A DNA stretch of 64,000 nt from Pontiella desulfatans (lineage in GTDB: Bacteria > Verrucomicrobiota > Kiritimatiellia > Kiritimatiellales > Pontiellaceae): NCBI RefSeq assembly GCF_900890425.1, contig NZ_CAAHFG010000003.1, positions 868,001 to 932,000 on the forward strand, written 5' to 3'. The notes below the pieces were generated by a model, which was given only the letters and a program-made list of their open reading frames with translations, was not told the DNA's origin and ran no database searches. The translations under genes and the position numbers were made by a program. How positions within the stretch are numbered: position 1 is the stretch's first letter; every line of letters starts with the position of its first letter. Shown here one piece after another: positions 3 to 52,971 of the stretch.

Positions 3-272
3 GATCCGCTCTACCGCACCCGCCCCGGATCCGCCCTGCGCTTCGGGAAATGGAAGTTTCATGAATATTTTGAGGACGGGCGGATTGAGCTTTATGATCT
101 GGAAGCCGATATCGGCGAGCGGAATAATCTGGCATCGCTTTATCCGGAAAAAGCCCGGGAACTTCATGCGGAGATGAAACGGTGGCGGGCGACGATGGAG
201 GCACCGGTGCCGACGGAGTTGAACCCGAAGTATAAGCCCGGTGAGAATAAACGAAAAAAGAAGAATCAATGA
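3..272 (+). CDS. Sulfatase, C-terminal part (cut by window edge)
   Basis: An open frame enters from the left edge and ends at 272, encoding about 89 residues. It contains GSALRFGKWKFHEYFEDG and ELYDLEADIGERNNLA. This tryptophan-lysine strand followed by ELYDLxxDxxExxNLA is the usual C-terminal subdomain of type I (formylglycine) sulfatases. The catalytic N-terminal domain lies outside the window, so substrate class cannot be judged. The lysine-rich tail (NKRKKKNQ) is typical of the sulfatases in this cluster. The stop overlaps the next start as ATGA, so it is probably translationally coupled to the following sulfatase. Confidence 0.85.
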   Translation, partial: DPLYRTRPGSALRFGKWKFHEYFEDGRIELYDLEADIGERNNLASLYPEKARELHAEMKRWRATMEAPVPTELNPKYKPGENKRKKKNQ

Positions 273-1627: not shown

Positions 1628-1631
1628 AGAG

Positions 1632-3077
1632 ATGAAGCGAATAACATTTATCCTGCTGATGGTTTCGACTGCAATTTGCAGTCAGGCCCGGATGCCCAAT
1701 ATTATCTATATTCTGGCTGATGATCTGGGATACGGTGATTTAGGTTGCTACGGGCAGGAAAAGATTAAAACTCCGAATATTGATGCCCTGGCGACGCAGG
1801 GCATGCGTTTCACTCAGCACTACAGCGGACAGGCGGTTTGTGCTCCGTCGCGTTGCTCTTTCCTGACCGGGCTGCATCAGGGGCATGCCTATATCCGCAA
1901 CAACAAAGAACTTCCGCATGAGGGACAGGTTCCGATTCCTGCCGATAGCTTCACGATGGCCAAGATGCTGAAGACGAAAGGGTATGCGACGGCCTGCGTC
2001 GGCAAGTGGGGTCTGGGCTATCCCGGCAGCGAGGGGGATCCGAATAACCAGGGATTCGATCTTTTCTTCGGGAACAACTGCCAGCGCCATGCCCATCAGT
2101 ATTACCGCGACTATCTTTGGCGCAACCAGGGAAAGGTGATGTATCCTGACAACAGGGATATCGAAGGGCCGAATTACAGTGCTGATGAAATGCGAAAGGA
2201 GGCGTTGGCTTTCATGGAGCAAAATAAGGATCAGGCTTTTTTCCTCTATTATGCCTCTCCAATCCCGCACGTATCGCTGCAGGTGCCGGATGAGACACTG
2301 AAGGAGTATGAAGGTCTATGGCCCGAAACGCCCTTTAAGGGCGCCTATAAACCCGCTACGGGTAAAGGCTATACCGGACACAAGACGCCGCGCGCCGCTT
2401 ACGCCGCGATGGTCTCGCATATGGACCGCAATATCGGCATGCTTATGAATAAGCTCGATGAACTCGGAATTGCGGATCAGACGTTGATTATCTTTACAAG
2501 CGATAACGGGGCTACCTATGCGGGTGGTGCAGATCCAAAATTTTTCGATGGAACGGCCGGGCTGCGCGGGTTGAAGGGCTCGCATTATGAGGGCGGTCTT
2601 CGCGTTCCGTTCATTGCCAAATGGCCCGGAAAAATTCCGGCCGGCACAACCAACGAACATGTATCCGCTTTCTGGGATATGCTTCCGACATTTGCGGAAA
2701 TTACCGATGCCGAAGTACCGGTCAAGGTTGACGGCATCAGCATGCTGCCGTCAATGACCGGAAAACCTCAGAAGGCGCACGATTTTCTGTACTGGGAATT
2801 TAATGCAAAAAACTACAACGGCGGTCAGGTTACAGTTCGTATGGGCGACTGGAAGGGGATCAAAACCCAGCAGCTCAGCTCAGGAAAACGGAATAAAAAG
2901 AATAAAAGTAAAACGCCGCATGTTCCCGGAAAAATGCAGCTCTATAATCTGAAAACGGATCCTTTTGAAAAAAACAATATCGCCGATCGACATCCGGAAG
3001 TGGTCGCGCAGATCGAAGCCATTATCAAACGGGAACATACACCATCTGTTTTGTTCCCTTTCGAAACCCTTGATTAA
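1632..3077 (+). CDS. Type I sulfatase (arylsulfatase A-like), secreted
   Basis: A 481-residue sulfatase with signal peptide (about 1-19), metal ligands in IIYILADDLGYGD, and maturation motif CAPSRCSFLTG with Cys70. GKWGLGYPGSEGDP, HVSLQVPDE and IIFTSDNGATYAGG follow in the normal order. The start has a purine-rich site (agagag) just upstream. It is a close paralog of the sulfatase at 54159: long stretches such as NNKELPHEGQ and the region around HAHQYYRDYLW are nearly identical, so the two probably act on the same or closely related sulfate esters. A lysine-rich insertion (KRNKKNKSK, around residue 420) is specific to this copy. It is the third gene of the 3-4704 operon. Confidence 0.94.
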   Translation: MKRITFILLMVSTAICSQARMPNIIYILADDLGYGDLGCYGQEKIKTPNIDALATQGMRFTQHYSGQAVCAPSRCSFLTGLHQGHAYIRNNKELPHEGQVPIPADSFTMAKMLKTKGYATACVGKWGLGYPGSEGDPNNQGFDLFFGNNCQRHAHQYYRDYLWRNQGKVMYPDNRDIEGPNYSADEMRKEALAFMEQNKDQAFFLYYASPIPHVSLQVPDETLKEYEGLWPETPFKGAYKPATGKGYTGHKTPRAAYAAMVSHMDRNIGMLMNKLDELGIADQTLIIFTSDNGATYAGGADPKFFDGTAGLRGLKGSHYEGGLRVPFIAKWPGKIPAGTTNEHVSAFWDMLPTFAEITDAEVPVKVDGISMLPSMTGKPQKAHDFLYWEFNAKNYNGGQVTVRMGDWKGIKTQQLSSGKRNKKNKSKTPHVPGKMQLYNLKTDPFEKNNIADRHPEVVAQIEAIIKREHTPSVLFPFETLD

Positions 3078-4704: not shown

Positions 4705-4808
4705 ATAATGCTCTGTTCGGGCAAGCATTCGATGCATGATTTTATTTTGCATAAAAAAAGAAACGAAGCCTACTCATTTGACGGTATGTGGTTTATTGTG
4801 TCCCCGTT

Positions 4809-5417
4809 ATGAATGAGGAAACAAAGGGTACCTATCGCACACGGATGACGCTGCTGCAGAAGATGCAGAAACAGTATGATGAGAAGGCCTGGCAGGAGTT
4901 TGTGGATTCCTACAGCGGCTACATTTATACCATTATCAACAGCATGAATATTGCATCAAGTGATGCGGATGATCTGCGCCAGCAGATTTTTCTGAAGCTG
5001 TGGAAAAAGCTGCCGGATGTGGATCTGAATAAAATGACGCGCTTCCGGAGTTATCTGGCGGTGGTGGTCCGGAACTGCGTGAAGGATTTTCTGCGTAAAA
5101 AACAAAGGGATACCAACCGGTCCGATAAACTGGTGGATTCCGACTCCGAACTGACGGACTCTATTTCACTTCCGGATATCGATGGAATTATTGAGCGGGA
5201 ATGGAGCAATTATGTGGCGGCCCTGGCGTTTAAAAATATTGCCCAATATTTTTCTTCCGATGCGATGAAGCTTTTTGACGAATCCTTGAAGGGCAGGGAT
5301 ATTAAAGTGATTGCTGAAGAGCTGGGCATGCCCTTGAGTACCGCATATCGCCTGAAAAGTCGGGTTAAAGACAGTCTGATGGATGAAATTTCCGCACTGA
5401 ATGAATATATGGGATAA
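4809..5417 (+). CDS. ECF-type RNA polymerase sigma factor
   Basis: About 202 residues with sigma70 region 2 (DDLRQQIFLKLWKKL and the following RSYLAVVVRNCVKDFLRKK) and region 4 with a helix-turn-helix (VIAEELGMPLSTAYRLKSRVKDSL). Regions 1 and 3 are absent, as in extracytoplasmic-function sigma factors. The ATG at 4809 is chosen; a GTG 21 bp upstream in frame is possible and neither has a clear ribosome-binding site. The gene sits 32 bp before a transmembrane protein kinase, a pairing known for several PVC-group ECF families in which the kinase replaces the anti-sigma factor. It is the natural candidate to read the repeated ECF-like motif found upstream of several genes here, but this link is inference. 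Confidence 0.88.
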   Translation: MNEETKGTYRTRMTLLQKMQKQYDEKAWQEFVDSYSGYIYTIINSMNIASSDADDLRQQIFLKLWKKLPDVDLNKMTRFRSYLAVVVRNCVKDFLRKKQRDTNRSDKLVDSDSELTDSISLPDIDGIIEREWSNYVAALAFKNIAQYFSSDAMKLFDESLKGRDIKVIAEELGMPLSTAYRLKSRVKDSLMDEISALNEYMG

Positions 5418-5449
5418 TCCTTCAACGGGTCAGAAAATGAGAGCGGATC

Positions 5450-7540
5450 ATGAAGCACTTGGATGAAGAGTCGCCGGATTTCAGGAACCTGGGTTCCCGG
5501 ATCAATGATTTTCTGGATTCAGATCCGAAAGCGGACGAGGAATCAGAGCACGCGGGATCCGCACCCATTCTTCAATCGCTGGACGAATCCCGCTACCATT
5601 TTACCAACGAAGAGTTTCTGGTGGCGGGCGGTGCCAAAAAAATCTCGAGGGTCTATGACTCCCATTCCGGCCGTCACGTGGCCATGGCCAATCCGCTTCG
5701 CTGGAAAACCGAGTCGGAAAAGGAGGAGTTTCTGCGCGAAGCCCAGCTGACGGCCAAGCTGCAGCATCCGAATATTCTGCCGATTCATGAAGTCGGCCTG
5801 AACAGCGCGGGTGAACCCTATTTTATTATGCGCCTGCTCGAGGGCGAGGAGCTGAAAAATATTGTTCGGGAGCGTACGGCCGGGAATGAGGACTATCTTC
5901 AGCGTTTTGATCTGGATACACTGCTGGAAATATACCTGAAAGTCTGCGATGCCGTCATTTATGCCCATTCCCGGGGGGTACTTCATCTGGATCTTAAACC
6001 GGCCAATATCATGGTCGGTCGGTATGGATTGGTCACCTTGTTTGACTGGGGCCTGGCCCGGGTGGTGGGGGATGATGGAACGGTGATGATTGATCAGTCC
6101 GCGGAGGAGTTTGATCCGGACCTGCTGAATAATGTAACGCACTCCGGCATGTTAAAAGGAACACCGGGATATATGGCCCCGGAGCAGGTAACGGATTACG
6201 GGCAGGTTTGCGCCCGTACGGACGTCTATGCCCTGGGGGCGATTCTCTATTTTATTCTGACCGGTACCATTCCGGTCAGTGGCACCCACGCGGAAGAAGT
6301 AATTGAAAATACGGTTGCAGGAAATATCGTACGTCCCCGGATGCGGCGTCCCAATCGCAATATTCCAACCAGCCTGGGAGCCGTGGCCATGAAAGCCCTG
6401 CAATTGGAAACCCGCGACCGCTATGCCAGTGTCCAGGCGCTGCATGATGAAGTTACGCGCTATCTGCGCGGCTTCGCACCGGCGGCGGAAAATGCCCACA
6501 TTTTAAAACGTTCACAGCTGTTCATGCGCCGGCACAGTAAAATGGTATTCACGCTGATGATGTTCGGTATGGTGCTGACTGTGGTCATTGCCGTTTTACT
6601 TGCGCGCGTTTCCGTTCAGCGCAGTCAGGCCCTGACGGCTAAACGCGAGGCCATCCATAATCTGGCGCTGTATAAAGAGGAAACAAAAACCTCGCAGAAA
6701 CTCTATACCGATGTGCAGTCCTTTTTTGTGAATTCGATTATGCGGGGTGATATCTGGAACTATAGCCTCATGCGCCGCATGGTGAACAATGAATTGCAAA
6801 AGCCGGACCTGGATGAGAAATACCGCAAACAGTTATTCCAGATGAAAGCATATCTGCATTTCATCAATGAAGAGTTTAGCGCGGCGGTTCAGGCTTTCGA
6901 TCAGGCGAAATTTGATCAGAAGAATAATCTGTATAAACAGTGTCTATACTTCTTGGAGATCAAGCCGGATGACCAGCAACTTCTGGAACCGGCACATTTT
7001 TCTGAATTACTGGATATGCCGTATCGGAATACCTTGTTCCGTAAGAATATTTTATCCCGGTGTTATGAGCGGCACATGGCTCGGGCGGAAAGGTTGACGC
7101 CGCAGGAATACCTGCCGATTGCCATTGCGATCCTCAACCTGACCAATGATACGCTCGGCTGGGGCGATCATGTGAAACTGGAGCCTCGGGAGGGGGGGCA
7201 TCATTTGAATCTGAGGAATGCGCCCTATCACACCTTACGGCTTACAGAAACCCGTTGGGGTCAGGGGGCCAGTATTCTGCTGCCATTGGATCTTGTTTCG
7301 CTGGATTTGAGCGGTTCGCATATTCATGAGTTCCACGGGTTGAAGCTGCAGGATCGGTTTGAAGAGCTCATTCTGCTGGGATTGAAGTTTTATGATCCGG
7401 AACCCAACACCTATTGGTTGGGAAAAATTCCTATGGAGCGTCTGGTCATTACGGCAGGGGCCATACCTAGATATCATCTGGAACGCTTTCCTCAACACAT
7501 TGAAGTGATCGAAATTCCGCAAGGCCGTACCTATCCCTGA
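5450..7540 (+). CDS. Transmembrane Ser/Thr protein kinase, atypical ATP-site lysine
   Basis: A 696-residue protein: N-terminal kinase domain (about 50-345), one membrane helix (about 365-389, MVFTLMMFGMVLTVVIAVLL) and a roughly 300-residue C-terminal region, presumably periplasmic. Kinase landmarks: alpha-C Glu97 (EEFLREAQL), catalytic loop HLDLKPANI (Asp181, Asn186), DWG in place of DFG (Asp199), and GTPGYMAPEQ. The usual beta-3 VAIK is VAMA (77-80), with no lysine; the glycine-rich strand reads AGGAKKISRVYD with lysines at 63-64, recalling WNK kinases. After the membrane helix come helical, TPR-like segments (about 400-530) and leucine-rich segments (about 620-680, LVSLDLSGSHIHEF). Likely partner of the adjacent ECF sigma factor. 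Activity is unproven. Confidence 0.85.
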   Translation: MKHLDEESPDFRNLGSRINDFLDSDPKADEESEHAGSAPILQSLDESRYHFTNEEFLVAGGAKKISRVYDSHSGRHVAMANPLRWKTESEKEEFLREAQLTAKLQHPNILPIHEVGLNSAGEPYFIMRLLEGEELKNIVRERTAGNEDYLQRFDLDTLLEIYLKVCDAVIYAHSRGVLHLDLKPANIMVGRYGLVTLFDWGLARVVGDDGTVMIDQSAEEFDPDLLNNVTHSGMLKGTPGYMAPEQVTDYGQVCARTDVYALGAILYFILTGTIPVSGTHAEEVIENTVAGNIVRPRMRRPNRNIPTSLGAVAMKALQLETRDRYASVQALHDEVTRYLRGFAPAAENAHILKRSQLFMRRHSKMVFTLMMFGMVLTVVIAVLLARVSVQRSQALTAKREAIHNLALYKEETKTSQKLYTDVQSFFVNSIMRGDIWNYSLMRRMVNNELQKPDLDEKYRKQLFQMKAYLHFINEEFSAAVQAFDQAKFDQKNNLYKQCLYFLEIKPDDQQLLEPAHFSELLDMPYRNTLFRKNILSRCYERHMARAERLTPQEYLPIAIAILNLTNDTLGWGDHVKLEPREGGHHLNLRNAPYHTLRLTETRWGQGASILLPLDLVSLDLSGSHIHEFHGLKLQDRFEELILLGLKFYDPEPNTYWLGKIPMERLVITAGAIPRYHLERFPQHIEVIEIPQGRTYP

Positions 7541-10600: not shown

Positions 10601-11241
10601 ACTGGGTCGTCAATCAAAGCGGTGCGGCTGTCGTGTATACGGTGGATGGGATTACCCATTCCGTTGCGAACGGCAGTGCCGATCTTTGGCAGGATGGATC
10701 GCTGGTTGTTGACAACGGCATCGACAAACCAGGGAATGGCAATGTTCTGACCGATACCACGAAGGTGGACAGTTTTGGCTGGACGGTCAATAAGGCGGAT
10801 GCCGCCGATTGGTATATGGATAATGTCGAGGTTCGGAACTACGCCTATGCGGAATACACCGCTCAAACTCCGCTCGAGGACTGGATGGCCATTTACGGTC
10901 TATCCGATCCGATGGCTGATCCTGATAGCGATGGACTGAATACGTTAAGCGAATTTGCTATGGGGGGTAATCCTACAAACGGCGCAGATATCGGGTATGA
11001 ATCGATTTTGGACAACCGCTCCGATCCGATGGTTTTCGTATATCCGCGCCGGCTCAATGCAGGACTAGTGTACTGGCTCGAAACCTCAACCAACCTGGTT
11101 TCCAATGTCTGGACGAACGGAGGATACACCGAGCTTCCTGCAACAGGAATGCTGGATCCGGAGTTTGAATCGGTGACCAATGAGGTCCCCGTTATTCTGC
11201 CTCAAACCTTCATCCGACTGATGATTGATCCCGTTCCATAA
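7651..11241 (+). CDS. Secreted multidomain parallel beta-helix protein
   Basis: 1196 residues, signal peptide about 1-18, start supported by AAAAGAGG. The N-terminal DUF1565-like start of a right-handed beta-helix (YYVATNGVNALPGGTLAAPFATIQ) is interrupted at about 72-215 by a lectin-like beta-sandwich ending in YFFIDDVQIGS; the helix then resumes (VIIDGTIPI) to about 750 and ends in APDMGAYEFG. Next come a YWIPG...WRVD...VWNYT Ig-like module (about 752-858), a second lectin-like domain (about 862-1070) and a C-terminal domain (about 1078-1196; DPDSDGLNTLSEFAMGGNP, FESVTN, FIRL) shared with the products of 11330 and 14576. The helix part resembles pectate-lyase-like and GH141-like enzymes, but no catalytic class can be assigned. 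Its upstream ECF-like motif suggests co-regulation with the cluster. Confidence 0.85.
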   Translation: MKKRLLLAIPVLVGAVFAEEYYVATNGVNALPGGTLAAPFATIQYGVDQLDAGDTLTIRGGRYHEGVIISDLNGSLSGSVDWSGGVGWDGDWILGINTASGSSGGNTAVRMVKAGSMTRTLSTGVSGSALSFKWDIDSFNNASDVASAEVFDGAWHTVWSMDNAGNSGDGNDSPDNLQTEIISLAAYGTVSQIRFSMSASTGTGDYFFIDDVQIGSAFHDFEGAGGAGIIIRNYAEEQVIIDGTIPIVGAWSPVSNGIYKTSVSTDIWQLFVDDEMQTSARWPDAEAWTEAMWDKDDHWIQQDAPSTDGTFIDEAGGPELAASGKDFSGAIAIMNTGSWLSFAREVTGHSAGSNTFTYAPIGNQYHHKIINGAAFFEASYACLSTNREWFYNALTDELFLIPDDGVNPSGREIRGKTLTYGLDISNSQNIAVRGIDFFACTFKVDTSDSITIEDADVLFPSYSKRMLGSTAKAEATFFDGDGNQLRNCTFQYADGAGIEFVGDGGLIENCLFYQIDYSCVGTLHDVMVNIRNASNLTFRQNTLDTGGNSVGIKGGPASVFELNRVTNQGMLQHDGSAIQTDADYTDGTIMQQNWVHDHIKFALRFDSPWLDPAVYGTNGVMRYNVLWNTQPMVPKGDYHHIYNNTGFDNDVVDISIFSDVTHGGVNSNTVTRNNAVNLISGSRSAAEPYPGIADHNWSGSEVKNELVDPAQWDFRPAVGSALIDAGTNVPGQVSGYVGVAPDMGAYEFGSTNYWIPGFIPAQAGMPIPNLGSVNQLEGRELIFQPGYGAVSVKVYFGTNAATLPMLGHFPAAHNVIDPRDHGVIPQGNTEYYWRVDTVLSNNSEIAGEVWNYTTADYTPTAPGVVFSDDFESYIPGSSPASSNWATQITLGSGSILVAEKGASQVVRLNNASTVDDRTVLGATDVFPEEGLITLSFDSFHDGAISMTGPMSLSAGIDSISSHLNQARKVSLAPYIATNIWHHFDWVVNQSGAAVVYTVDGITHSVANGSADLWQDGSLVVDNGIDKPGNGNVLTDTTKVDSFGWTVNKADAADWYMDNVEVRNYAYAEYTAQTPLEDWMAIYGLSDPMADPDSDGLNTLSEFAMGGNPTNGADIGYESILDNRSDPMVFVYPRRLNAGLVYWLETSTNLVSNVWTNGGYTELPATGMLDPEFESVTNEVPVILPQTFIRLMIDPVP

Positions 11242-11257
11242 TTATTTTCATTCGAAA

Positions 11258-11287
11258 TGAGAAGCCCGCAGACGAGTGGCGTTTCTA
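11258..11287 (+). promoter_or_regulatory. ECF-like promoter motif, site 2
   Basis: TGAGAA (11258-11263), 14 bp, GGCGTTTCTA (11278-11287), 42 bp before the start at 11330. Both boxes are identical to site 1 while the 14-bp spacer is unrelated, which argues against simple duplication of the region. Confidence 0.7.
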
Positions 11288-11329
11288 GGTTGGATTGCTT
11301 GACTTCATAAACACACAGAGGAGTGATAA

Positions 11330-13675
11330 ATGAAATTATTCAGTACATTAAGTTTAATTGCAGGGACGATGCTTATTGCAGGAACCACTCAGGGAGCGGT
11401 TTTAGCCAGTGAGGATTTTGAATCCGGAAACAGCATGAGCACAAGGGCAACCGGTGGTGCGGCCATTTCCCGTATTGACGACCCGACGAATCCTGGAAAC
11501 AAGGTCATGTATCTGACCACCCGAACCAATGGCGTGGACCATGTGAATGGCACGGTGTCGTTGTATGCGAATCAATGGTTTCCGGAAACTGCGCTGGTGA
11601 CGATGAGTTTCGATGTCTATTACAAGGACGGTCAGGGTGACCCCAATGACTTTAATGACGGTGTTTTTGCCCGGTTGGCTACCCTGGATGCCAAGGGCTT
11701 CCAGAATGACCCCGCTGACCCGGTTGTTTATGTATCCGATTTGCAAAACCGTAACGGTGTTACGTCAAATACCTGGCATCACATCGATCTGGTGGCCATG
11801 GGAGAAACCGGAACGGCGACCAATTACAGCGTATTGGGTTACATTGACCGAGATCTGGATCCGGATGAAATTCACATGTATGTGGATGGGGTTTTTATTG
11901 CCCAGATTTCTTCAAAAAATGCTGGTAATACGAATGACATTTCCAGCATCTGCATTGAAACCATTTCAGGAAACGGCAGCGGAAACCGAGCCGATCTCTA
12001 TGTGGATAATGTGGTGGTGCGCGATGAAATCGTAGTCGGCAGTGTGCCCGGTTCAGCGGACCTGGGGATTCTGAGCATCCCGCCGGAAAACAATGTCATT
12101 GAATCGTTTGAAGCCACGCAGGGATCATCTTTTGGCCCGGCCCGTAAAGCAGATACGCCGGTCGCGGCAAGCGATAACCGGATTGTGGGCCAGACGTTTA
12201 CGATCAGTGGTACGAATACCTATGTTCTCGACGCAGTCACGCTCAAGAGCGGCAGTACGAAAAACCTGACCGGTGCGTCCCAGAACCTGGCGGTCGCGAT
12301 TCTGAAAGATACCAATGCGGATGGACGTGGGGATCTGCAGATCGGCTCCACCTACACATATGACGTTACGGATCTGAGCATCCGTCCCGGCGCCTACCTG
12401 AGCTTCCCGCTGGGTGAAGGTATTTCCAATGTAGTGGCCGGAACGTATCAGATTGAAACCTATTATGATGAAGTCGATGCGGATAATTTCGGTCTGAACT
12501 GGGACCGCAATGAATCCGTTGATGCGTATGGTGGCGGTCAGCAGGTTTCGGTGGGATCCAACGACGGCACCTTCCCGCTCGGCGATGGGCTTGGCAAAGC
12601 GTCCAATGCCGATCTGACCTTCTACGTTCAGGGCCGGGATATGGCCGGTGTACTTCCCTCGTTCGGATCCTTTTCGCTGAGTGCCGCGGCTCCGGTAACG
12701 GACATCCTCGAGTCGTATGAAGCGGTGTCCAACCTGAGTTCATTCAGCTCGACCCGTATTACAGATTCACCCGTTGTGAATTCGGATAACCGGGTGCTTG
12801 GGCAGAGTTTTGAGCTTTCCGGCATTGCGGGCACGGCGACTATTGATGCCGTCACGATGTTGAAACCGGAAACGGCAGGTAATCTTGCATATACGAATGC
12901 GTCGCATACCTATCAGCTCGCTCTGATGAAGGATACCAATGCGGACGGTAAGGGTGATCTGCAGGTTGGAGATACCTATAACTTTGAGTTTACGGGTGAG
13001 ACCTTTACGTCAAACGAAACCTACATTACCTTCAATCTGAACTCCGGTATTACCGGCGTTGTGGATGGGGTATACCATGTTGAATTCTACTGGGGCGAAG
13101 TGGATCCCCTGCATACCGGCTTCCCGCTGGGACGTTCGGTGAATGGAAACGGGTATGCTGCAGGCGGGCAGCTCGCTAAGTTTAAGAATGAAGGTACCTT
13201 TCCAGTCGGCTCCGGAATGGGGAATCCCAGCGCAGAAGCTGACCTGACCTTTTTCATTCAGGGCACGGTCGATGCGCCGGCGGATTATGACAGCTGGGCG
13301 GATGGATTCGGTCTGATCGGTTCAGACCGGGATCTGGATGCCGACCTCGAGCCCGATGGAATGGACAACCTGACGGAATATGCCCTGGGCGGAAATCCGA
13401 ATGTGGATGATGCCGCAGCTGTGCTTCCGACCTACTCATCAAAAAGTGCCTATATTGAGTATGTCCATCGCGAACGATCCGATGCGGTATCCCGCGGGCT
13501 GGATTATAACGTGCAGTCCACTGCGGCTCTGAGTATGCCGGCCTGGACCAATGACAGCACCATTACCTATGTGGGCAAAGGTGCCATTGATGGTGAATTT
13601 GAGTCGGTAACAAACCGTCTGGATACGGCATCCGGCGATGCCTATTTCATTCGTCTGCACATTCAACAGGATTAA
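11330..13675 (+). CDS. Secreted repeat protein with lectin-like domain
   Basis: 781 residues, signal peptide about 1-22, strong ribosome site (GAGGAG). Residues about 25-235 form a lectin or laminin-G-like beta-sandwich (DFESGN near the start, ADLYVDNVVVRDE at the end). Two tandem copies of a roughly 185-residue domain follow (about 253-435 and 456-646). Each has an N-terminal I(I/L)ESxEA, SDNR(I/V)xGQ, a calcium-loop-like KDTNADGxGDLQxG, and a C-terminal FPxGxGxG...ADLTFxxQG. The C-terminal domain (about 653-781; DGMDNLTEYALGGNP, FESVTN, FIRL) is shared with 7651 and 14576. No enzyme motif was recognised; a glycan-binding or surface role is likely. Single copies of the tandem domain occur in the next two genes. 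Confidence 0.8.
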   Translation: MKLFSTLSLIAGTMLIAGTTQGAVLASEDFESGNSMSTRATGGAAISRIDDPTNPGNKVMYLTTRTNGVDHVNGTVSLYANQWFPETALVTMSFDVYYKDGQGDPNDFNDGVFARLATLDAKGFQNDPADPVVYVSDLQNRNGVTSNTWHHIDLVAMGETGTATNYSVLGYIDRDLDPDEIHMYVDGVFIAQISSKNAGNTNDISSICIETISGNGSGNRADLYVDNVVVRDEIVVGSVPGSADLGILSIPPENNVIESFEATQGSSFGPARKADTPVAASDNRIVGQTFTISGTNTYVLDAVTLKSGSTKNLTGASQNLAVAILKDTNADGRGDLQIGSTYTYDVTDLSIRPGAYLSFPLGEGISNVVAGTYQIETYYDEVDADNFGLNWDRNESVDAYGGGQQVSVGSNDGTFPLGDGLGKASNADLTFYVQGRDMAGVLPSFGSFSLSAAAPVTDILESYEAVSNLSSFSSTRITDSPVVNSDNRVLGQSFELSGIAGTATIDAVTMLKPETAGNLAYTNASHTYQLALMKDTNADGKGDLQVGDTYNFEFTGETFTSNETYITFNLNSGITGVVDGVYHVEFYWGEVDPLHTGFPLGRSVNGNGYAAGGQLAKFKNEGTFPVGSGMGNPSAEADLTFFIQGTVDAPADYDSWADGFGLIGSDRDLDADLEPDGMDNLTEYALGGNPNVDDAAAVLPTYSSKSAYIEYVHRERSDAVSRGLDYNVQSTAALSMPAWTNDSTITYVGKGAIDGEFESVTNRLDTASGDAYFIRLHIQQD

Positions 13676-13690
13676 TTGTACCTTTTTAAC

Positions 13691-13714
13691 GCCCTGTTTC
13701 GGAAGGAACAGGGC
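13691..13714 (+). terminator. Intergenic hairpin without T-run
   Basis: GCCCTGTT (13691-13698) pairs with AACAGGGC (13707-13714), an 8-bp perfect stem, 15 bp after the stop of the 11330 gene and ahead of the PEP-CTERM gene. No U-tract follows, so it may be an mRNA processing or stabilising hairpin rather than a true terminator. Confidence 0.45.
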
Positions 13715-13737
13715 CCCAACCTTGAAGGAATAGAAAG

Positions 13738-14463
13738 ATGAAAAGTACCATTTTATTGTTCAGTATAGCCTCTGCGGCGGTGACCTCTGCCGGAACATTT
13801 GCCATTTCGACAACGGCTCCGGATGCGAACGTGTTGGAATCGTTTAATACACTCGATTATACGAATACCACAGCGGTTCTGGGGACGATGGGGCCCGCCC
13901 GTAAACAGCTGGGGACCGTGAATGGCGATAACCGCATGGCCGGGCAGCGACTGACGCTTTCCCAGAGCACCAATGTGCAGGCCAGCTCGATCACCTTTCG
14001 TGTGGCATCTTCAAAAAGTTTCAGTGGCGGAGGTGATGTAAATACTTTGTTGCTCTCCATTGTTGATGCTTCCCATGCCCAGATCGCCAGTTATTCCTAT
14101 GACCTCAGTAGTACGGATTTTGTTAAAGGCGATTATGTGAAGCTGGATCTCAATAATGTGGAACTGGCATCCACTACTACTGGGGTTGAATATGAATTCC
14201 AGTTGTATTTTGGTGAAACCGATACGGAAAATGCCCTGGCGTTGGAACGGGACAACGGTGGAAATTCGTATGCTGATGGGGCGTTGATCAGTATGGCCTC
14301 CACGACGGATGTGCTGAGTCTGCCTATTGCGTCGCCGAGCGGGGGGAATTCCGACCTGACCTTTTTCCTGGAAGGGAATGTGATTCCTGAGCCGGCTACC
14401 TTAGGTTTGATCAGTGCTTTCGGAGGAGGTGTTTTTCTGATCCGTCGATGGTTTTCCATCTAA
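13738..14463 (+). CDS. PEP-CTERM protein with the shared repeat domain
   Basis: 241 residues: signal peptide about 1-18, one copy of the domain found twice in the 11330 product (VLESFN, NGDNRMAGQ, then NSDLTFFLEGN), and a C-terminal PEP-CTERM sorting signal. That signal is VIPEPATLGL, then a hydrophobic stretch with GGG, then basic RRWF at the end. PEP-CTERM tails are recognised by an exosortase, which removes the tail and routes the protein to the cell surface or exopolysaccharide; no exosortase gene is in the window. The KDTNADG loop of the other copies is replaced by a shorter segment. A ribosome site (AAGGA) precedes the start. Ligand unknown. Confidence 0.85.
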   Translation: MKSTILLFSIASAAVTSAGTFAISTTAPDANVLESFNTLDYTNTTAVLGTMGPARKQLGTVNGDNRMAGQRLTLSQSTNVQASSITFRVASSKSFSGGGDVNTLLLSIVDASHAQIASYSYDLSSTDFVKGDYVKLDLNNVELASTTTGVEYEFQLYFGETDTENALALERDNGGNSYADGALISMASTTDVLSLPIASPSGGNSDLTFFLEGNVIPEPATLGLISAFGGGVFLIRRWFSI

Positions 14464-14480
14464 TTACCTGTTTTGAGCTT

Positions 14481-14529
14481 CCCCGTCACTTTTTCCAGTG
14501 TTGTTATCAAACATACTGAAGTGGCGGGG
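14481..14529 (+). terminator. Stem-loop, possible terminator
   Basis: CCCCGTCACTT (14481-14491) pairs with AAGTGGCGGGG (14519-14529), an 11-bp stem with one wobble and a 27-base loop, followed by TTCTATATTT. It lies between the PEP-CTERM gene and the next beta-helix gene and could terminate the first or act in the leader of the second. Confidence 0.5.
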
Positions 14530-14575
14530 TTCTATATTTAGAGCAATATGAAATTCGTACTAATAAGAGGGAAAA

Positions 14576-17500
14576 ATGCGAAAATTGATTTTTATACTTT
14601 GTTGTGTCAGTGCGGGGTGGATTCAGGCGGCTGATGTCTATGTGGCCACAAACGGAGTGGATGCCGGTTCCTCCAGTTCGATAGGCGCCCCATTTGCTAC
14701 TGTTTCGTATGCGGCCTCTAAAATGAGCGCCGGAGATACCTGCTATATCCGGGGAGGTTCCTATCATGATGAGGTCATTCTTTCCGGTGAAAACAACCTG
14801 ACGTTCAAGGCCTATCCGGGCGAGCAGGTCACCATGGATGGTACCGTTGCAATCACCACACCCTGGACGCTGCACTCCGGAAGTATTTATAAAACCACGC
14901 TGTCGCAGGATATCTGGCAGCTGTTTGCCGGTGAAGAAATGATGATGCCGGCGCGCTGGCCAAATGCTTTTCTTCATGATGATTCCGTGTGGGATCTGAA
15001 TAATCACTGGGCAAGAATCGATCATAATTTAAATACAACGACGACCATGGTCGATGATCCTACGGGGCACTCGGATTTGGCTGCACTTCCGTTCAGCATT
15101 ACCAATGCGATTGCAGTACTTAATGTGGGCAGTTTTAAAACCTATGCGCGTTTGGTGAATACGCATGCAGTGGGCTCCGATACCTTTGCCGTGAATGCGG
15201 TCGGCAGCCTGAAAAGTTCGCTTCAGTACTATTTCCTTGAAGGAAAGCTGGAATTTCTGGATGTGGAAAAGGAGTGGTACTTTAACAAGGATACCGACGA
15301 GTTGTATTTCTGGGGTAATACGAATGCAACCATTCGCGGAAAGGTTCAGGACTACGCTTTCCAGTTTACCAACTGCGATGACATCACGATCAGCGGAATC
15401 GATTTTTTTGCGACGACGGTCTATTTCAGCGGATGCCACCGGGTTTGGGTTGAAAAAGGAGACTATAATTTCCCGAGCTGTACAAAACGGATGCTGGGAG
15501 CGCATTCCGTTTCCCCGAATGCCACGGCGTTTATCGGCGGATCCGATAATGCCTTTTATGATAACACGATGCGCTTTGCAGAAACGCAAGCCATTTACAT
15601 GGACAACGGAACGGACAACCTTATTGAAAACTGCCTGTTCGAATATATCGACTGGAGTGTGGCCGATCTGCCAAGTCTCATGGGCACCGTTTATATGCGT
15701 GGGAGCGGTTCGGTTTATCGCGGGAACACGGCGCATACCACCGGGGCATCGGAATTTTTTGATGTGAATGATAACCCCGTCGCTGAGCTGAACCTGATTT
15801 ATAATATCGGGCTCGTACAGAATGACGGCGCGGCGATTCAGTTGACCGTCGGCGCGCAGCCCGAAACTGTGGTGGCCTATAACTGGTTCTTTGAATCCGA
15901 CAAATACGGCGCGCGTTTCGATGCTTCAACGGCATTGGGCAGTCCTACCGGAATGGATGGCCTGATGCATCACAATGTTGGTTTTCATGTGAAAAGCACT
16001 ATTATGCAAAAGGGCGATTACCATGAGTGCTACAACAACACGTCTTTGAATACAGAAAATAACGGGATCATTATTCTGGCTGATAATGTGTCGGACAGTC
16101 TGGGCACCATTGTGCAAAACAATGCGGCGGAACGCCTGGGATCGTCCCGTTCCGGAAACGATCCGCTCGCTCCGGTCACCATTCATGATCATAACTGGAA
16201 TGGCTATGAATACGGTAATGCGGATGCCCGAACGGTACTGCGCGATCCGGATAACCTGGACTTTCGGCCCATCCCGAATTCAATACTGGTCGATGGCGGC
16301 ACTCCGGTTTCCGGCATTACAGACGCCTACACCGGACGGGCACCCGATATCGGTGCGTATGAACATGGGGCCGCAACCTACTGGATCGCAGGCCGTCAGG
16401 AAAAAGGAGCGTCTACAGCCATTCCGCCGGACGGGTCAACTACGGTTAAAGCCTCGGCTTCGCTGATGTGGCTGAAGGGATTGGAGTCGACCTCCAGCGA
16501 TGTCTATCTGGGCACGGCTTCGAATGCGGTGGCCACGGCCTCCACCAACAGCAGCGAGTTTGTGGGTAACCAGCTGAATAATATTTATGATCCATTGGGC
16601 TTATTTGCGCAGACCTATTTCTGGCGGGTTGATGAACATACACCCTCCGGCATTGTGACGGGAGCCGTCTGGACCTTTACGGTACCTTCGGCAACGCTGG
16701 CCGCACCGGGCATCGTAAACCTTCCGGCTCAGGATATCACCGGCACGTCGGCGACCCTCGGAGGGCAGATTACGGATGGCGGAACCAGTTCTAAGGTCTG
16801 GATCTATTGGTGGCCCGACGGCGGGGCGACCAATGAAGTGTATATAGGCAAAAATGCCGGTTACTATGGGCTGCCGGTATCAGGACTGCAAAGTAACGCC
16901 ACGTATAACTATTATGCGTATGCTGAGAACAGATATGGATCCAATACAACAGCATCCGTAGAAATTTTCACCACAGGGGATGTCGAACCACCGGAGCCGG
17001 AAGGCCCGCAGGCAATGTATTTTACCGAACTGGCTGCTGTTCCATCCACCGGGGTTGAGGTTTCCTGGACGACGCTCAACAGTACGTGGAACAACATTAC
17101 CGTTGCTGCAAATGATGGCAGTGGTGATGAGCAGCTGTATGGTCAGACATTCTCGAGCACCACGGATTTCAATCTGTCAGCGATTTCTTTCCATGCAACA
17201 GCGGATACGAGAACGTATGGAACGAATCAGGTGCTGGAGTTGGCTCTACTGGAAGATACCGATACCAACGGGGTGCCGGATACGATCCTCGGCGCGGTAT
17301 ACTCGGTTCAGTTCCCGTCAATTGATGGTTCAAAACCTTGGAAAAAAATGAGTTTTGCCAACGCGATTCCGCTCAAGGGGGATACCGCCTATGGTTTTGT
17401 TTATACATTGATCGGTCCGGTATCGAATGATCTAAGGGTTTCAACGGATAAAAATGATGGCTATTCCGATGGTAATGCGGTTAAAGGTGTTTATCCTGCC

Positions 17501-17980
17501 GGGGCATTTCCGGGAAGCCTGCCGCCGACACTTAATAATCTGCGGGATCTGGCCTTTGTCATCCAAGGCGATGCCGAAGGCGATACGCTCTATGGGGATT
17601 GGCTGGGTGAATACACCGCAGGGGGCCAGACCGCTCTGGAAGATAATCCCGACCTGGATACGCTCAATAACCTACAGGAGTATGCATTTGGTGGTGGCCC
17701 GGATAATCCCAATGATCCGGCGGATATTTTTCCGGCTTACAGCATAACCAATTCAGCTGATTTCGAGTTTATCTATCGTCGGCGCAAAGATGCCGAAGCA
17801 CGTGGATTAAGCTACTGGGTGGAAGCCGGTACGAATCTTCTGTCTGATACATGGACAACGAACGGGGTTCAGGAAACGGGCGTCGGTGCAGTTGATGCTG
17901 ATTTTGAATCGGTCACCAATCTGTTGGATGCCTCATTGCAGAATGAATCCTTTATCCGTCTGCGGGTTCGTAAGAACTAA
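14576..17980 (+). CDS. Secreted multidomain parallel beta-helix protein
   Basis: 1134 residues, signal peptide about 1-18, ribosome site AGAGGGA. The beta-helix (about 19-600) begins DVYVATNGVDAGSSSSIGAP and ends APDIGAYEHG. It is colinear with the 7651 product but lacks the lectin-like insertion: YHDEVILSGENNLTFKAYPG runs straight through. A YWIAG...WRVD...VWTFT module (about 600-705), a fibronectin-III-like segment (about 712-800, TSATLGGQITDGG) and one copy of the repeat domain of 11330 (about 812-1002) follow. The C-terminal shared domain (about 1003-1134; NNLQEYAFGGGP, RRRKDAEARGLSYWVEAGTN, FESVTN, FIRL) closes the protein. Probably a polysaccharide-active or binding protein; reaction not assignable. 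Confidence 0.85.
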   Translation: MRKLIFILCCVSAGWIQAADVYVATNGVDAGSSSSIGAPFATVSYAASKMSAGDTCYIRGGSYHDEVILSGENNLTFKAYPGEQVTMDGTVAITTPWTLHSGSIYKTTLSQDIWQLFAGEEMMMPARWPNAFLHDDSVWDLNNHWARIDHNLNTTTTMVDDPTGHSDLAALPFSITNAIAVLNVGSFKTYARLVNTHAVGSDTFAVNAVGSLKSSLQYYFLEGKLEFLDVEKEWYFNKDTDELYFWGNTNATIRGKVQDYAFQFTNCDDITISGIDFFATTVYFSGCHRVWVEKGDYNFPSCTKRMLGAHSVSPNATAFIGGSDNAFYDNTMRFAETQAIYMDNGTDNLIENCLFEYIDWSVADLPSLMGTVYMRGSGSVYRGNTAHTTGASEFFDVNDNPVAELNLIYNIGLVQNDGAAIQLTVGAQPETVVAYNWFFESDKYGARFDASTALGSPTGMDGLMHHNVGFHVKSTIMQKGDYHECYNNTSLNTENNGIIILADNVSDSLGTIVQNNAAERLGSSRSGNDPLAPVTIHDHNWNGYEYGNADARTVLRDPDNLDFRPIPNSILVDGGTPVSGITDAYTGRAPDIGAYEHGAATYWIAGRQEKGASTAIPPDGSTTVKASASLMWLKGLESTSSDVYLGTASNAVATASTNSSEFVGNQLNNIYDPLGLFAQTYFWRVDEHTPSGIVTGAVWTFTVPSATLAAPGIVNLPAQDITGTSATLGGQITDGGTSSKVWIYWWPDGGATNEVYIGKNAGYYGLPVSGLQSNATYNYYAYAENRYGSNTTASVEIFTTGDVEPPEPEGPQAMYFTELAAVPSTGVEVSWTTLNSTWNNITVAANDGSGDEQLYGQTFSSTTDFNLSAISFHATADTRTYGTNQVLELALLEDTDTNGVPDTILGAVYSVQFPSIDGSKPWKKMSFANAIPLKGDTAYGFVYTLIGPVSNDLRVSTDKNDGYSDGNAVKGVYPAGAFPGSLPPTLNNLRDLAFVIQGDAEGDTLYGDWLGEYTAGGQTALEDNPDLDTLNNLQEYAFGGGPDNPNDPADIFPAYSITNSADFEFIYRRRKDAEARGLSYWVEAGTNLLSDTWTTNGVQETGVGAVDADFESVTNLLDASLQNESFIRLRVRKN

Positions 17981-18206: not shown

Positions 18207-19439
18207 TTAATGGGTACCCTCTAATTCGGGGGTTGTCAAGGTGGGGAGGCAGTCGGGGAACCCGGGTTCCCCGACTGCGGCGGACTCGCCGGTTTTCTTC
18301 ATTTTTTCGATCTTGCGACGTCGGCGCTGGATGCGATTGCCCAGCTCGAAAGGGTCGAGCGTTTCGTATTCGCGTTGCAGAGCAGCCTCCTGTTGTTCGC
18401 CAAGGATGCCGCTGACCTTCAGGCGGTCAAAGGGCGTGGCGGGGGCATCGTATTTCTTTTTGTACCGGCTTTTGACGCGAACCTTGCTTTTTAGCTTGAA
18501 CGAGGGTTTGAAGAAGTTGTTGAGCCGTTCCCAGTCGCGGTAGAGTGCGTTGAGCTCTCTGATCATGGCCGGGTTGTCGAGCCGGTCGTAGCCGAGCAAC
18601 TCGCGCACGTGCGTCCAGTTCTTTTGTTCGACATGGGCGTTGTCGTTCTTGTGGTACGGTCTGCTGCGTGTAAAACAGACGGGCTGTTTGCGTTGCAGGA
18701 AGTAGCGCGTGAGATGGTGGTTGAGGAACTCGCTGCCGTTGTCGCAGTCGAAGCCCAGGATGGCGAAGGGCAGCTTGTTTTCCACGTCGTGGGTTTGGTG
18801 CATCACGCCTTCAGCGCCTTTGTTCCAGACCGCGCGGGTTACCGTCCAGGTGCTTATGATATCCGTATAGGTGATCGACCAGATGAAGTCCCCGCTCATC
18901 GATCCGCCACAGTGGGCTACTGTGTCGGCTTCGAGATAGCCGGGCCGGTCGATGTCCTCGGTGGAGGTGCGGATTGGGATCTGATTCTTGAGCAGCGAGC
19001 CGGGCTTGGTACCGGTATTGCGCCTTCGCTGGTACTGCGCTTTGAAGGGTTTGAGCACCCGGTCGATGCTTGCCGGGCTGATTCTCAGTAGCTTTTCACG
19101 GCATTCGGTCGATAGCGGTTCGTAATGTTTTTCATAGTGCTTCAGCCAATGTGGCATAGCAGGCTTGAGGCGCTTCCCGCACAGTTGTCCAGAACGAAGC
19201 CACAGAGTTTTGAGGGTCTTGCGCAATTCAGCAGAGTCGTACTCGCCTTTGCGGCCGCGTTTGCCCCTGGAGGGCGTAAACGAGTCGTTGAGCAGCTTGG
19301 TGGCATGCTTGCGATCATAGCCGCATACCGCGCATACTTCATCGAGCAACCGGGTCTTGTAGGCCTTTTCCGCGCGCCTATAGCGGCGTTTTTGTACCGC
19401 GATGTATTCCATTCTGGTTTCGCAACTCATCTCTTTCAT
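18207..19439 (-). CDS. DDE integrase-type transposase
   Basis: 410 residues. N-terminal helix-turn-helix region (about 25-60, VCGYDRKHATKLLND) and an rve-like integrase core with the DDE triad: Asp in YLEADTVAHCGGSMSGDF, Asp in GFDCDNGSEFLNHHL, Glu in HVEQKNWTHVRELLGY. A basic C-terminal region (RVKSRYKKK) follows. Two start codons are possible: 19439, whose ribosome site GGAGG abuts it, or 19430 with better spacing. The gene appears intact and is bounded by the element's inverted repeats, so the element could be active. Confidence 0.88.
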   Translation of the reverse strand: MKEMSCETRMEYIAVQKRRYRRAEKAYKTRLLDEVCAVCGYDRKHATKLLNDSFTPSRGKRGRKGEYDSAELRKTLKTLWLRSGQLCGKRLKPAMPHWLKHYEKHYEPLSTECREKLLRISPASIDRVLKPFKAQYQRRRNTGTKPGSLLKNQIPIRTSTEDIDRPGYLEADTVAHCGGSMSGDFIWSITYTDIISTWTVTRAVWNKGAEGVMHQTHDVENKLPFAILGFDCDNGSEFLNHHLTRYFLQRKQPVCFTRSRPYHKNDNAHVEQKNWTHVRELLGYDRLDNPAMIRELNALYRDWERLNNFFKPSFKLKSKVRVKSRYKKKYDAPATPFDRLKVSGILGEQQEAALQREYETLDPFELGNRIQRRRRKIEKMKKTGESAAVGEPGFPDCLPTLTTPELEGTH

Positions 19440-19684: not shown

Positions 19685-21391
19685 ATGAATACGATTAAAT
19701 TTCTTTTAGTAGTTTGGGTCATTGCAATGCTCGGTGGGAATGCCCGGGCATCAAAACCGAATATTCTCTTTATTATGTCGGATGACCACACCTCGCAGGC
19801 CATCGGGGCCTACGGCAGCCGGTTGGCGAAGCTGAATCCGACGCCGACGATCGATAAACTGGCCGAAGAGGGCATGGTGATGGAAAATGCCTTCTGCCAT
19901 AATGCCATCTGTACCCCAAGCCGCGCCTGCATCATGACCGGGCAATACAGCTCCATTAATGGATGTCCCACGCTGAACGATCCGCTGCCGGAGGAAAAGC
20001 AGTACCTGGCCCATGAAATGAAAAAGGCGGGGTATCAGACAGCGGTCATCGGTAAGTGGCATCTCAAGGCGCTTCCGACCGCATTCGATTACTACAAAGT
20101 CCTGCAGGGGCAGGGGGACTACTTTGATCCATTCTTTTTTGAAACCGGAGCGACCGGTGTGATCAAACGGCAGATGACCTGGGGCAATAAACCCTGGAAA
20201 ACCTTTGAAGGTGCCGTGGAGATGAAAGGCCACTCTACCGACTGCATTGCGGATTCCGCGCTGGAATGGTTTAAAGAAAAACGCGATCCGGATCAGCCGT
20301 TTTTCCTGAAGTTGCATTTTAAAGCCCCGCACGATTATTTTGAATATGCCCCGCGGTATGAAAGCTATCTCGAAGATGTGGAAATTCCGGAACCTTCCAA
20401 TCTTTGGAAACGGGAAAGCAACGGATCGCTTGCGACACGCGGTCACAACGATGAACTGCTGCCCTACATTGGAACGTCGGTCGGTCGCCGCAACCTGCGC
20501 CGGAATTATGCCGAGGACGAAAAAACGCCGTGGGCCGACAAGATGGATCACAGCCTGAATGATGAAGATATCAAACGTCAGGCTTACCAACTTTATCTGA
20601 AAGCCTACCTTCGCTGTGTAAAGGGGGTGGATGACAACCTCAAGCGTGTTGTTGATTACCTGAAGGCGGAAGGGCTCTATGATAATACCGTCATTATGTA
20701 TACCGGCGATCAGGGGTTCTATCTCGGCGAGCATGACTATATTGACAAGCGCTGGGCTTATGAAGAATCCATGCGCATGCCGTTTATTGTACGCTATCCG
20801 AAATCCATTCCTGCGGGCAGCCGTACCGACGCGGTGGTCGAAAATGTGGACTATGCACCGACGATGCTCGAGTTTGCCGGCGTGGAAACGCCGGACTATA
20901 TGCAGGGGCGCAGTTTTAAAAGTATCATCGAAACAGGCAAAGAGTCCAATGATTGGAAAAAGGCCGCGTACTATCATTATCAGATGCATATGTCGGCCCA
21001 TGATAATCCGGCCCACATCGCCATCCGCACCAAGCGCTATAAACTGATCCTGTTTTATGGAACCGGATGGAAGGGCGAGTCTGAGCCCGACACCCCGCCT
21101 GCCTGGGAACTCTACGACCTGAAACAGGATCCATCTGAAAACAACAATGTATACGACAATCCGGAATATGCTGAAGTGGTTCAGGAGCTGAAAGATGATT
21201 TGAAGGCGTTGCGGAAACAGTACAAAGTGGATGGATCTGAATTTGCGTATAACAAGGTGATCAATGAATTCTGGGAATATGGCGTAGCCGAACGGATCCG
21301 CGCGATCGAAATTTCCAACCAGATGGTGCAGAAGCATAAAGACGGTACCTGGACACATAATGTGAAGCGTACGCCGAAAAAGAAAAAATAG
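19685..21391 (+). CDS. Type I sulfatase, secreted
   Basis: 568 residues. Signal peptide about 1-22; metal ligands in [18 protein letters not shown]; maturation motif [14 protein letters not shown] with Cys76. [40 protein letters not shown] and [16 protein letters not shown] follow in family order. The SDDHT plus GDQGFxLGEH signatures group it with the sulfatase at 47837, which is alike over the full length; the present copy has an extra insertion near 165-185 ([13 protein letters not shown]). The basic tail ends in PKKKK. It has its own upstream ECF-like motif and is followed after 7 bp by another sulfatase and then GH29, probably one operon. Confidence 0.93.
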
Positions 21392-21398
21392 GGATAGG

Positions 21399-23252
21399 AT
21401 GAACATACTGAAACTATGTGTTGTTACAGGGCTTGTTTTCGGCGCAGTAGCTGCATCCGCTGAAAAGCCGAATGTGGTGATCGTGATTACGGACGATCAG
21501 GGCTATGGCGATCTCGGTTGCAATGGCAACACCGTCATCCAGACGCCGAACATTGACCGCCTGCGCGCTCAGGGTATACAGCTGGATAATTATCATGTGG
21601 ACCCCACCTGTGCGCCGACGCGTTCAGCCCTCATGACCGGTCGCTATTCTGCCCGGGTCGGGGTATGGCATACGGTGCAGGGGCGCAATATGCTGCGGGA
21701 ACGTGAAGTTACCATGGCCGATATTTTTAAAGATAATGGATATGAAACCGGCATCTTCGGGAAGTGGCATTTGGGCGACTGCTATCCCTACCGTCCGGAA
21801 GATCGTGGGTTCACCTATACGGTTTATCATGGCGCCGGCGGGGTCGGTCAGGCACCGGATTATTGGGGAAATGACTATTTTGATGACAGCTACATGAAAA
21901 ACGGAACCTGGCAAAAATTTACAGGGTTCTGCACGGATGTTTGGTTTGAGGAGGGCATCGCCTTCATCGAGGACAATGTTAAAAAGGATCAGCCGTTCTT
22001 TGCCTACATTGCGCCGAATGCACCCCATGGCCCGTTTTATTGTCCGGAGGAATATACCAAACCCTACGAAGGGAAAGAGGGCGTATCACGCACCGAGTTT
22101 TACGGTATGGTGACCAATATTGATGACAATATGGCCAAACTGATGAAGCGCCTGGATGAGCTGGGTATTGCCGATAACACCATTCTGATCTTTACCACGG
22201 ATAACGGCACCTCCGGCGGACTGCATAAAGGCGTCGGTTTTAATGCCGGGATGCGCGGTCAGAAAAATTCGGAGTATGACGGTGGTCATCGTGTGCCGTT
22301 TATCATGCGCTGGCCCGACGGAAAAATTCCGGCCGGTAAAAGTGTGAAACAGCTGACGGCCCATCTTGATATGCTGCCTACGTTTATTGATCTCTGCGGA
22401 TTGGAAGCACCGGAACTCGAATTTGACGGAACCAATATCCGTGACCTGCTCTATTCCGATGGAAGTCATTGGCCGGATCGCTCTCTGGTTGTGGAATCCC
22501 AACGGGTGGTCGATCCGATAAAATGGCGCAAGAGTGCCGTAATGACCGATCAATGGCGGCTGGTGAACGGAGAAGAACTTTTTGATATCCGAAACGACCC
22601 CGGTCAGGTGACGGATGTGAAAGACCAGCATCCCGAAGTTTTTGAACAGCTGCGCGGAAAGTATGAAACCTTCTGGAAGGATGTTTCCAGTGAACATAAC
22701 CTGACCAGCTATATGAAAATCGGTTCGGATGAATCGCCGGTGGTGGCCCTGTCCTCACACGACTGGCTGACGGCGAATGTGCCATGGTATCAGCCGCACA
22801 TCATGCATGGCGCCATGGCCAAGCCGGCCCACTGGGCGGTGGAGGTGGTTCGTGATGGAGAATATGAAATTTCACTGCGCCGCTGGCCGGTCGAAGCCGA
22901 TAAGCCGATCAATGCGGCCAATGGGTATAAAGGATTCGATTTTAAGCAGGCGCGTATGCGTGTTGCCGATGTGGATAAAACCAGGGAAATCCCTGAGGGC
23001 GCCAAAGAGGTGACCTTTAACGTGAAGTTGAAAAAGGGGCTGGTGGAACTGTCGCCTTTATTCATCGGCGGTGGCCGCGAAGCTACGCCGTATTATGTAT
23101 ATATCACCCATCAGCCGAAAGCCGGATGGCAAACACCGGAGGGAATGGGGGTTACTGTTTATGATCCATCCTATGGACGCGTCCCCCCGCAAAGACTGGA
23201 TCAGGATCATCCGACCCGGAACTGGGAGCCGAAGCCCGGCAAAAACCAATAG
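21399..23252 (+). CDS. Type I sulfatase with C-terminal extension
   Basis: 617 residues, longer than the roughly 450-500 of simple members. Signal peptide about 1-21; metal ligands in [18 protein letters not shown]; maturation motif [14 protein letters not shown] with Cys71. [30 protein letters not shown] and [11 protein letters not shown] follow. After the normal C-terminal subdomain ([16 protein letters not shown], about 390-405) comes an extra region of about 150 residues (about 455-610; [20 protein letters not shown]) that looks like a beta-sandwich and may bind substrate or shield the active site. It sits 7 bp after the previous sulfatase and 22 bp before GH29, so a sulfatase-sulfatase-fucosidase operon is likely. 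Confidence 0.92.
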
Positions 23253-38183: not shown

Positions 38184-38209
38184 TGCGCGGTTTATGGAGT
38201 TATCTCAGT

Positions 38210-39673: not shown

Positions 39674-39734
39674 TGGATCATCAAACTGTCCGGGGTGCGC
39701 GGGGTTTCATGATTGAATTTAAACAGGAGTGCAC

Positions 39735-42279: not shown

Positions 42280-42309
42280 TGAGAAAATATGCGTTTCCCG
42301 ACGTCTGTA
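42280..42309 (+). promoter_or_regulatory. ECF-like promoter motif, site 6
   Basis: TGAGAA (42280-42285), 14 bp, GACGTCTGTA (42300-42309), 27 bp before the GH29 start at 42337. It overlaps an upstream in-frame ATG at 42289, which supports 42337 as the true start. Confidence 0.65.
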
Positions 42310-42336
42310 GAAGTAGAATCAACCAACAGGAACGGA

Positions 42337-47721: not shown

Positions 47722-47836
47722 ATTGATTATTTATGATCATTGAGACGGTGAATGCCGGTGAACTAAAGCGCATGAAATAGAATGCATGCTAATGGCGCTG
47801 TGCTTACATGCGATGTCGGGAATGGAGGAGTGGGGC

Positions 47837-52877: not shown

Positions 52878-52971
52878 GAGCAATTGACACCCGCAAGGAA
52901 GCGGGGTAATTAACGAAAAAGTGTTACACTTTTGGGCCGCCGCCCGGTGCACTTTTCAACCGGCGTTTACA

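Follow-up and report, generated by a model that had tools for sequence, protein, structure and literature searches.

The window, that is the whole stretch of 64,000 nucleotides of the Pontiella desulfatans genome analysed here, contains three long genes whose products begin with an export signal and end in a common domain, called the tail below (Table 1). A sigma-70-region-2 gene and, next to it, the gene of a membrane Ser/Thr kinase (4788-7540) immediately precede the first tail gene, and a transposase-like ORF of 410 aa (18207-19439, minus strand; no Pfam match at 1e-5) lies beside the cluster on the opposite strand. Compared with the first tail, the window tails show 32-43% identity, and 29 columns are invariant. 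In each of them the calcium loop is followed by an R-rich stretch ending in GLxY, then by FESVTN, placed exactly 19 residues before the end, and by FIRL, 5-6 residues before the end. This is the order of motifs put forward in an earlier note on this DNA, except that the third calcium loop lacks the DG; the start proposed there for the first tail (10880) is correct to within a few bases. In agreement with the same note, the tail has no hydrophobic segment (maximum 19-residue hydropathy: median 0.71, highest 1.44). None of the three window tails is recognised by Pfam or NCBIfam.

The upstream domains had been described as different. This is true for tail protein 2, but tail proteins 1 and 3 have homologous bodies (34% identity over 707 aa); tail protein 1 also gives a weak match with choice_anch_Q. 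A module of about 150 aa occurs in two copies in tail protein 2 and as a single copy both in tail protein 3 and in a PEP-CTERM protein whose gene lies between those of these two. It stands flush to the PEP-CTERM segment in the latter and flush to the tail in the two others. The structural model of this module was mediocre (pLDDT 69) and gave no informative match.

Table 1. Tail proteins, PEP-CTERM protein and their parts in the window (aa, amino acids).
Feature	Position	Strand	Remarks
Tail protein 1, 1196 aa	7651..11241	+	export signal; body homologous to that of protein 3; tail domain at the C-terminus
Tail domain of protein 1	10876..11238	+	W-helix, calcium loop, helix, Ig-like beta domain (predicted)
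Calcium loop of protein 1	10918..10953	+	EF-hand-like, DPDSDGLNTLSE
Tail protein 2, 781 aa	11330..13675	+	export signal; shared module (two copies); tail domain
Shared module, copy 1, protein 2	12134..12649	+	
Shared module, copy 2, protein 2	12743..13279	+	adjoins the tail domain on its N-side
Tail domain of protein 2	13286..13672	+	
Calcium loop of protein 2	13343..13378	+	EF-hand-like, DLEPDGMDNLTE
PEP-CTERM protein, 241 aa	13738..14463	+	shared module; ends in PEP-CTERM, not in a tail; TIGR02595 16.4 bits, cut-off 16
Shared module, PEP-CTERM protein	13885..14385	+	directly N-terminal to PEP-CTERM
PEP-CTERM segment	14386..14460	+	PEPATLGLISAFGGGVFLIRRWFSI
Tail protein 3, 1134 aa	14576..17980	+	export signal; beta-helix body; shared module; tail domain
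Shared module, protein 3	17084..17578	+	directly N-terminal to the tail domain
Tail domain of protein 3	17591..17977	+	sequence used for structure prediction (pLDDT 92.5, pTM 0.85)
Calcium loop of protein 3	17645..17680	+	EF-hand-like, degenerate, NPDLDTLNNLQE

The common tail was confirmed on a larger scale when a profile built from the three window tails was run against the own genome (8.66 Mb, labelled G000): at least 150 places were matched, far beyond chance, about 100 of them at full length. A profile built from 95 tails gave at least 149 copies among the best 150 of 385 candidates scored, and all these copy counts are lower bounds. The mean pairwise identity of the family is 30%, which indicates that its members have diverged and are not recent duplicates. 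All but a few of the 147 tail ORFs of this genome have a tail that ends at most a few residues before the stop codon; where two tails stand in tandem, this applies to the second. In 109 of 112 full tails, a set that excludes the few internal copies, 6-9 residues follow the last conserved Phe. In other named genomes (80 loci), 99 of the 103 closed tail matches end at the terminus or at most 45 residues from it. The expectation that the tail is always C-terminal thus holds for nearly all copies, but a few are genuinely internal. One, at C1:2079685, has 645 aa C-terminal to the tail. Another, at C1:2436798 in the middle of an ORF (L348, G000:C1:2431500-2437300), is directly followed by 491 aa of sulfatase-like sequence and looks like a gene fusion. 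Further internal copies are located at C4:94384 and at loci L270 and L346. They count against a strictly terminal signal, since such a signal should not be internal.

The AlphaFold2 model, computed with 95 sequences as input (scores in Table 1), predicts a helix carrying a near-invariant Trp (residues 7-18), the calcium loop, a second helix (residues 39-45) and six strands in an Ig/FN3-like sandwich. The loop consensus is D/N-x-D/E-x-D-G-x-x-N-x-x-E, the ligand pattern of an EF-hand, which suggests that the loop binds calcium; 110 of 112 tails keep its third Asp and its Glu. With Foldseek and VIA-align, the best matches of the model were FN3 domains of cytokine receptors (Z 8.9, rmsd 2.9 over 79 residues) and otherwise Ig domains of MHC/CD1. 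Such a likeness of the predicted sandwich is that of a common fold and says nothing on function. Neither a carbohydrate-binding module (CBM) nor a type IX secretion (T9SS) C-terminal domain (CTD) was among the fold matches listed, an absence that excludes nothing.

Family membership was examined with the 95 tails. No dockerin, CBM, PEP-CTERM or TSP3 match was obtained in Pfam, and no PEP-CTERM, T9SS or other sorting model was matched in NCBIfam. Three of the 95 tails gave weak matches with Amuc_1099_fam of NCBIfam (best E 3.6e-4), which may be due to chance. A sequence search of the PDB with the tail returned only the EF-hand of calcineurin B (E 0.27). By profile, membership of the CBMs and of the type IX CTDs was therefore rejected, as was that of PEP-CTERM (TIGR02595/PF07589), in this case also because of the missing hydrophobic segment. 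Dockerin membership was rejected on the lack of a profile match, on the single calcium loop instead of two and on the absence of cohesin (PF00963) from G000 and G016. The earlier note had named frequent internal copies and a match with a CBM or dockerin family as findings that would tell against its reading; internal copies are few and neither family was matched.

A signal-peptide-like start was found in 142 of 147 carriers with a simple heuristic, which is not SignalP and uses the best start; the sigma factor, kinase and transposase-like genes of the window score low with it. The carriers are typically long proteins (median 967 aa), and their bodies fall into 27-34 groups even under generous single linkage. 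The domains recognised in 139 of them include sulfatase (17), Big_9, cadherin-like and Ig repeats, lambda-carrageenase-like domains, GH10, GH43, GHL15, CBMs, beta-helix, SASA esterase and subtilase. A C25-family peptidase occurs in a 1431-aa frame with a tail (h132, G000:C3:842904-846269); the C25 peptidases of Bacteroidota have a type IX CTD in that place. Autotransporter-repeat-like passenger proteins ending in a tail were observed at loci L113 and L298, among them h128 and h141 with two tandem tails. Nine sulfatases of the window (412-617 aa; 269-3077, 19685-23252, 34135-35649, 38183-39673, 47786-49528 and 52921-55571) and two alpha-L-fucosidases (39729-41267 and 42289-43983) have no tail, and most of these eleven look exported by the same heuristic. 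The tail should therefore mark a subset of the exported proteins and be unneeded for leaving the cytoplasm.

The arrangement seen in the window, with one module ending either in a tail or in PEP-CTERM, is repeated elsewhere. About 98 PEP-CTERM genes were counted in the own genome with a short and permissive model; to judge from some of the chain ends, this number probably includes a few false positives. Twenty-two of the 98 are located on the same strand as a tail gene and at most 1.7 kb downstream of it (random mean 1.35, maximum 6 in 500), and none lies near a tail gene on the opposite strand. This adjacency is strong in the own genome and weak, with no clear repeat, in G016 and G184. When 68 PEP-CTERM proteins of the own genome were examined, 32 had a body homologous to tail-protein bodies, and in 14 flush cases the homology stops no more than 20 residues short of the PEP motif and no more than 25 short of the tail. 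A match to some tail body was found for 30 of 49 PEP-CTERM genes near a tail gene versus 2 of 19 others, and 19 of the 49 are homologous to that very neighbour. Further flush pairs of tail and PEP-CTERM proteins were found between species. One body with two alternative endings is as expected if these endings do comparable jobs.

The profile search beyond the window that the earlier note had called for detected homologues in all 20 near relatives searched and, across the phylum, in 125 of the 194 genomes sampled. Among the hosts with a name are Pontiella sulfatireligans, Pelagicoccus, Haloferula, Luteolibacter, Rariglobus and many metagenome-assembled genomes of Verrucomicrobiota and Kiritimatiellales. 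The titles in the sample of 80 named loci are those of PVC bacteria with two exceptions: one names an uncultured bacterium, and the other, on a contig that may have been binned wrongly (L302), names Gammaproteobacteria. Weaker C-terminal relatives occur at L281, L286, L293 and L311; their last strands resemble FYRL or FFKVEA, which suggests a wider superfamily of C-terminal beta domains. No paper describing the tail domain was found in the open-access literature.

Co-occurrence with one secretion system was another check that the earlier note had suggested. Four or more tails were present in 86 of the 194 genomes, and exosortase (PF09721) was detected in all 86, while none of the 50 genomes devoid of exosortase has more than three tails; the link is correlative and confounded by phylogeny and genome size, which inflate its significance. 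Sulfatase-rich genomes without exosortase (G131, G110, G100 and G127) contain 0-3 tails, and 20-24 scored tails were found in G063, G161, G174 and G177, where exosortase is present and no sulfatase was matched, a comparison that is a partial control for lifestyle. No receptor, translocon or protease was found for the tail, exosortase being the sole co-occurring machinery. Having no membrane segment, the tail is not expected to be cut by exosortase in the way that PEP-CTERM is. The two systems may rather share a destination, for example an exopolysaccharide-bearing surface; the exosortase/PEP-CTERM system has been tied to exopolysaccharide by Haft et al. (PMC1569441).

Taken as a whole, we give a little better than an even chance to the proposal that the tail, as a folded C-terminal domain that binds calcium, sorts or retains Verrucomicrobiota exoproteins and is an alternative ending to PEP-CTERM. 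The carriers would exit from the cytoplasm via their N-terminal signal peptide, as the heuristic points to, and the tail (W-helix, EF-hand-like loop, helix and Ig-like sandwich) would fold with Ca2+ after export, the last strand of the sandwich finishing just short of the chain end. The folded tail would be recognised as a unit, by a putative receptor or translocon and with or without cleavage, and large multi-domain glycan-degrading enzymes and adhesin-like proteins would thereby reach, or stay at, the outer surface. The suggestion of a sorting or secretion signal is in this way partly sustained, by the near-constant terminal position, the number of copies, the many exported bodies, the lack of a hydrophobic segment and of a known-family match and the alternation with PEP-CTERM; it is weakened by the few internal copies and by the homology of two of the three window bodies.

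The main rival, which we regard as unlikely, is that the tail binds a surface or matrix glycan in a calcium-dependent way, as a CBM-like or matrix-retention module, and that export follows another route. The carriers are largely polysaccharide-active or adhesin-like, the calcium loop is present and occasional internal and tandem copies are as expected of a binding module. The tails are also strongly acidic (net charge per 100 aa of -11.5 versus -7.0 for the bodies), and the link to exosortase genomes, with their tie to exopolysaccharide, goes in the same direction. However, the missing CBM match, the fixed distance to the chain end, the use of a single family on bodies with very different substrates and the 20 or more copies in genomes without sulfatases do not fit well with it, nor do the listed fold matches, which are Ig/FN3 proteins, though a missing match excludes nothing. 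Between sorting and matrix binding, the fixed chain end and the swap with PEP-CTERM slightly favour sorting, whereas the internal copies slightly favour matrix binding.

It is improbable that the tail caps the C-terminus passively, stabilising long exported proteins, and plays no part in targeting. The domain is compact and confidently predicted, and tails diverge in step with their bodies, but neither the alternation with PEP-CTERM on homologous bodies nor the tracking of exosortase across the phylum would be expected of a cap. Still less probable is a dockerin-like plug docking the enzymes on a cohesin-like receptor of a surface scaffold: the one calcium loop followed by a helix does recall half a dockerin, an EF-hand-like arrangement also seen in dockerin type I (PF00404), but the tail has a fused beta-sandwich, the genomes lacking cohesin hold at least 149 (G000) and 73 (G016) tails, and the neighbouring PEP-CTERM proteins have bodies in common with the tail proteins, not one common receptor fold. 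A divergent type IX CTD in a phylum possessing T9SS is hardly tenable, for although T9SS CTDs (TIGR04183 and relatives) are likewise folded Ig-like C-terminal sandwiches with a conserved, constrained chain end and very low mutual identity on many exported enzymes (PMC11285876, PMC4804311), the predicted sandwich is weak evidence, this fold being common, the tails match no sorting model and add the W-helix and a calcium-loop half that these CTDs lack, and no T9SS parts were detected, with SprA in 0 of 194 genomes (no control genome gave a match either) and C25 peptidases (PorU class) absent from the tail-rich G016, G051 and G001, the own genome having two.

The sorting or retention domain that we favour thus resembles the type IX CTD in predicted shape and PEP-CTERM in usage, and neither by sequence. 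Like the tail, PEP-CTERM of the exosortase system (TIGR02595, PF09721) is C-terminal, reaches tens to about 100 copies per genome and is borne by diverse exported as well as homologous bodies; unlike the tail, a folded domain of about 130 aa, it consists of about 25 aa with the PEP motif, a transmembrane helix and a basic end. Bacterial TSP3 repeats (PF18884) and other DxDxDG repeats have similar letters in their calcium loops, and two whole carriers match TSP3_bac, but the tail has a single loop in a fixed domain context. The choice-of-anchor domains of NCBIfam (e.g. NF041518) are, like the shared module, bodies with alternative C-terminal anchors; these names designate the bodies, whereas the new element here is the anchor-like end. 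Tentatively, and with less confidence than in the domain itself, an unrecognised sorting or outer-membrane delivery pathway of Verrucomicrobiota could be proposed, which would read a C-terminal domain made of a calcium loop and an Ig-like part, serve more than 100 substrates per genome and act beside or through the exosortase/PEP-CTERM surface.

In the 2019 study of van Vliet (PMC6388578) and in the Pontiella agarivorans paper (PMC10880615), enzyme export is treated no further than signal peptides, and the route outward of the sulfatases and glycan-degrading enzymes of Verrucomicrobiota and Kiritimatiellia is not described beyond them. A domain marking an exported subset would allow the prediction of surface-acting proteins. 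The tail profile would permit the annotation of many hypothetical proteins, the tail could serve as a bait for its machinery, and the correlation with exosortase provides a connection, open to testing, with a sorting system about which little is understood.
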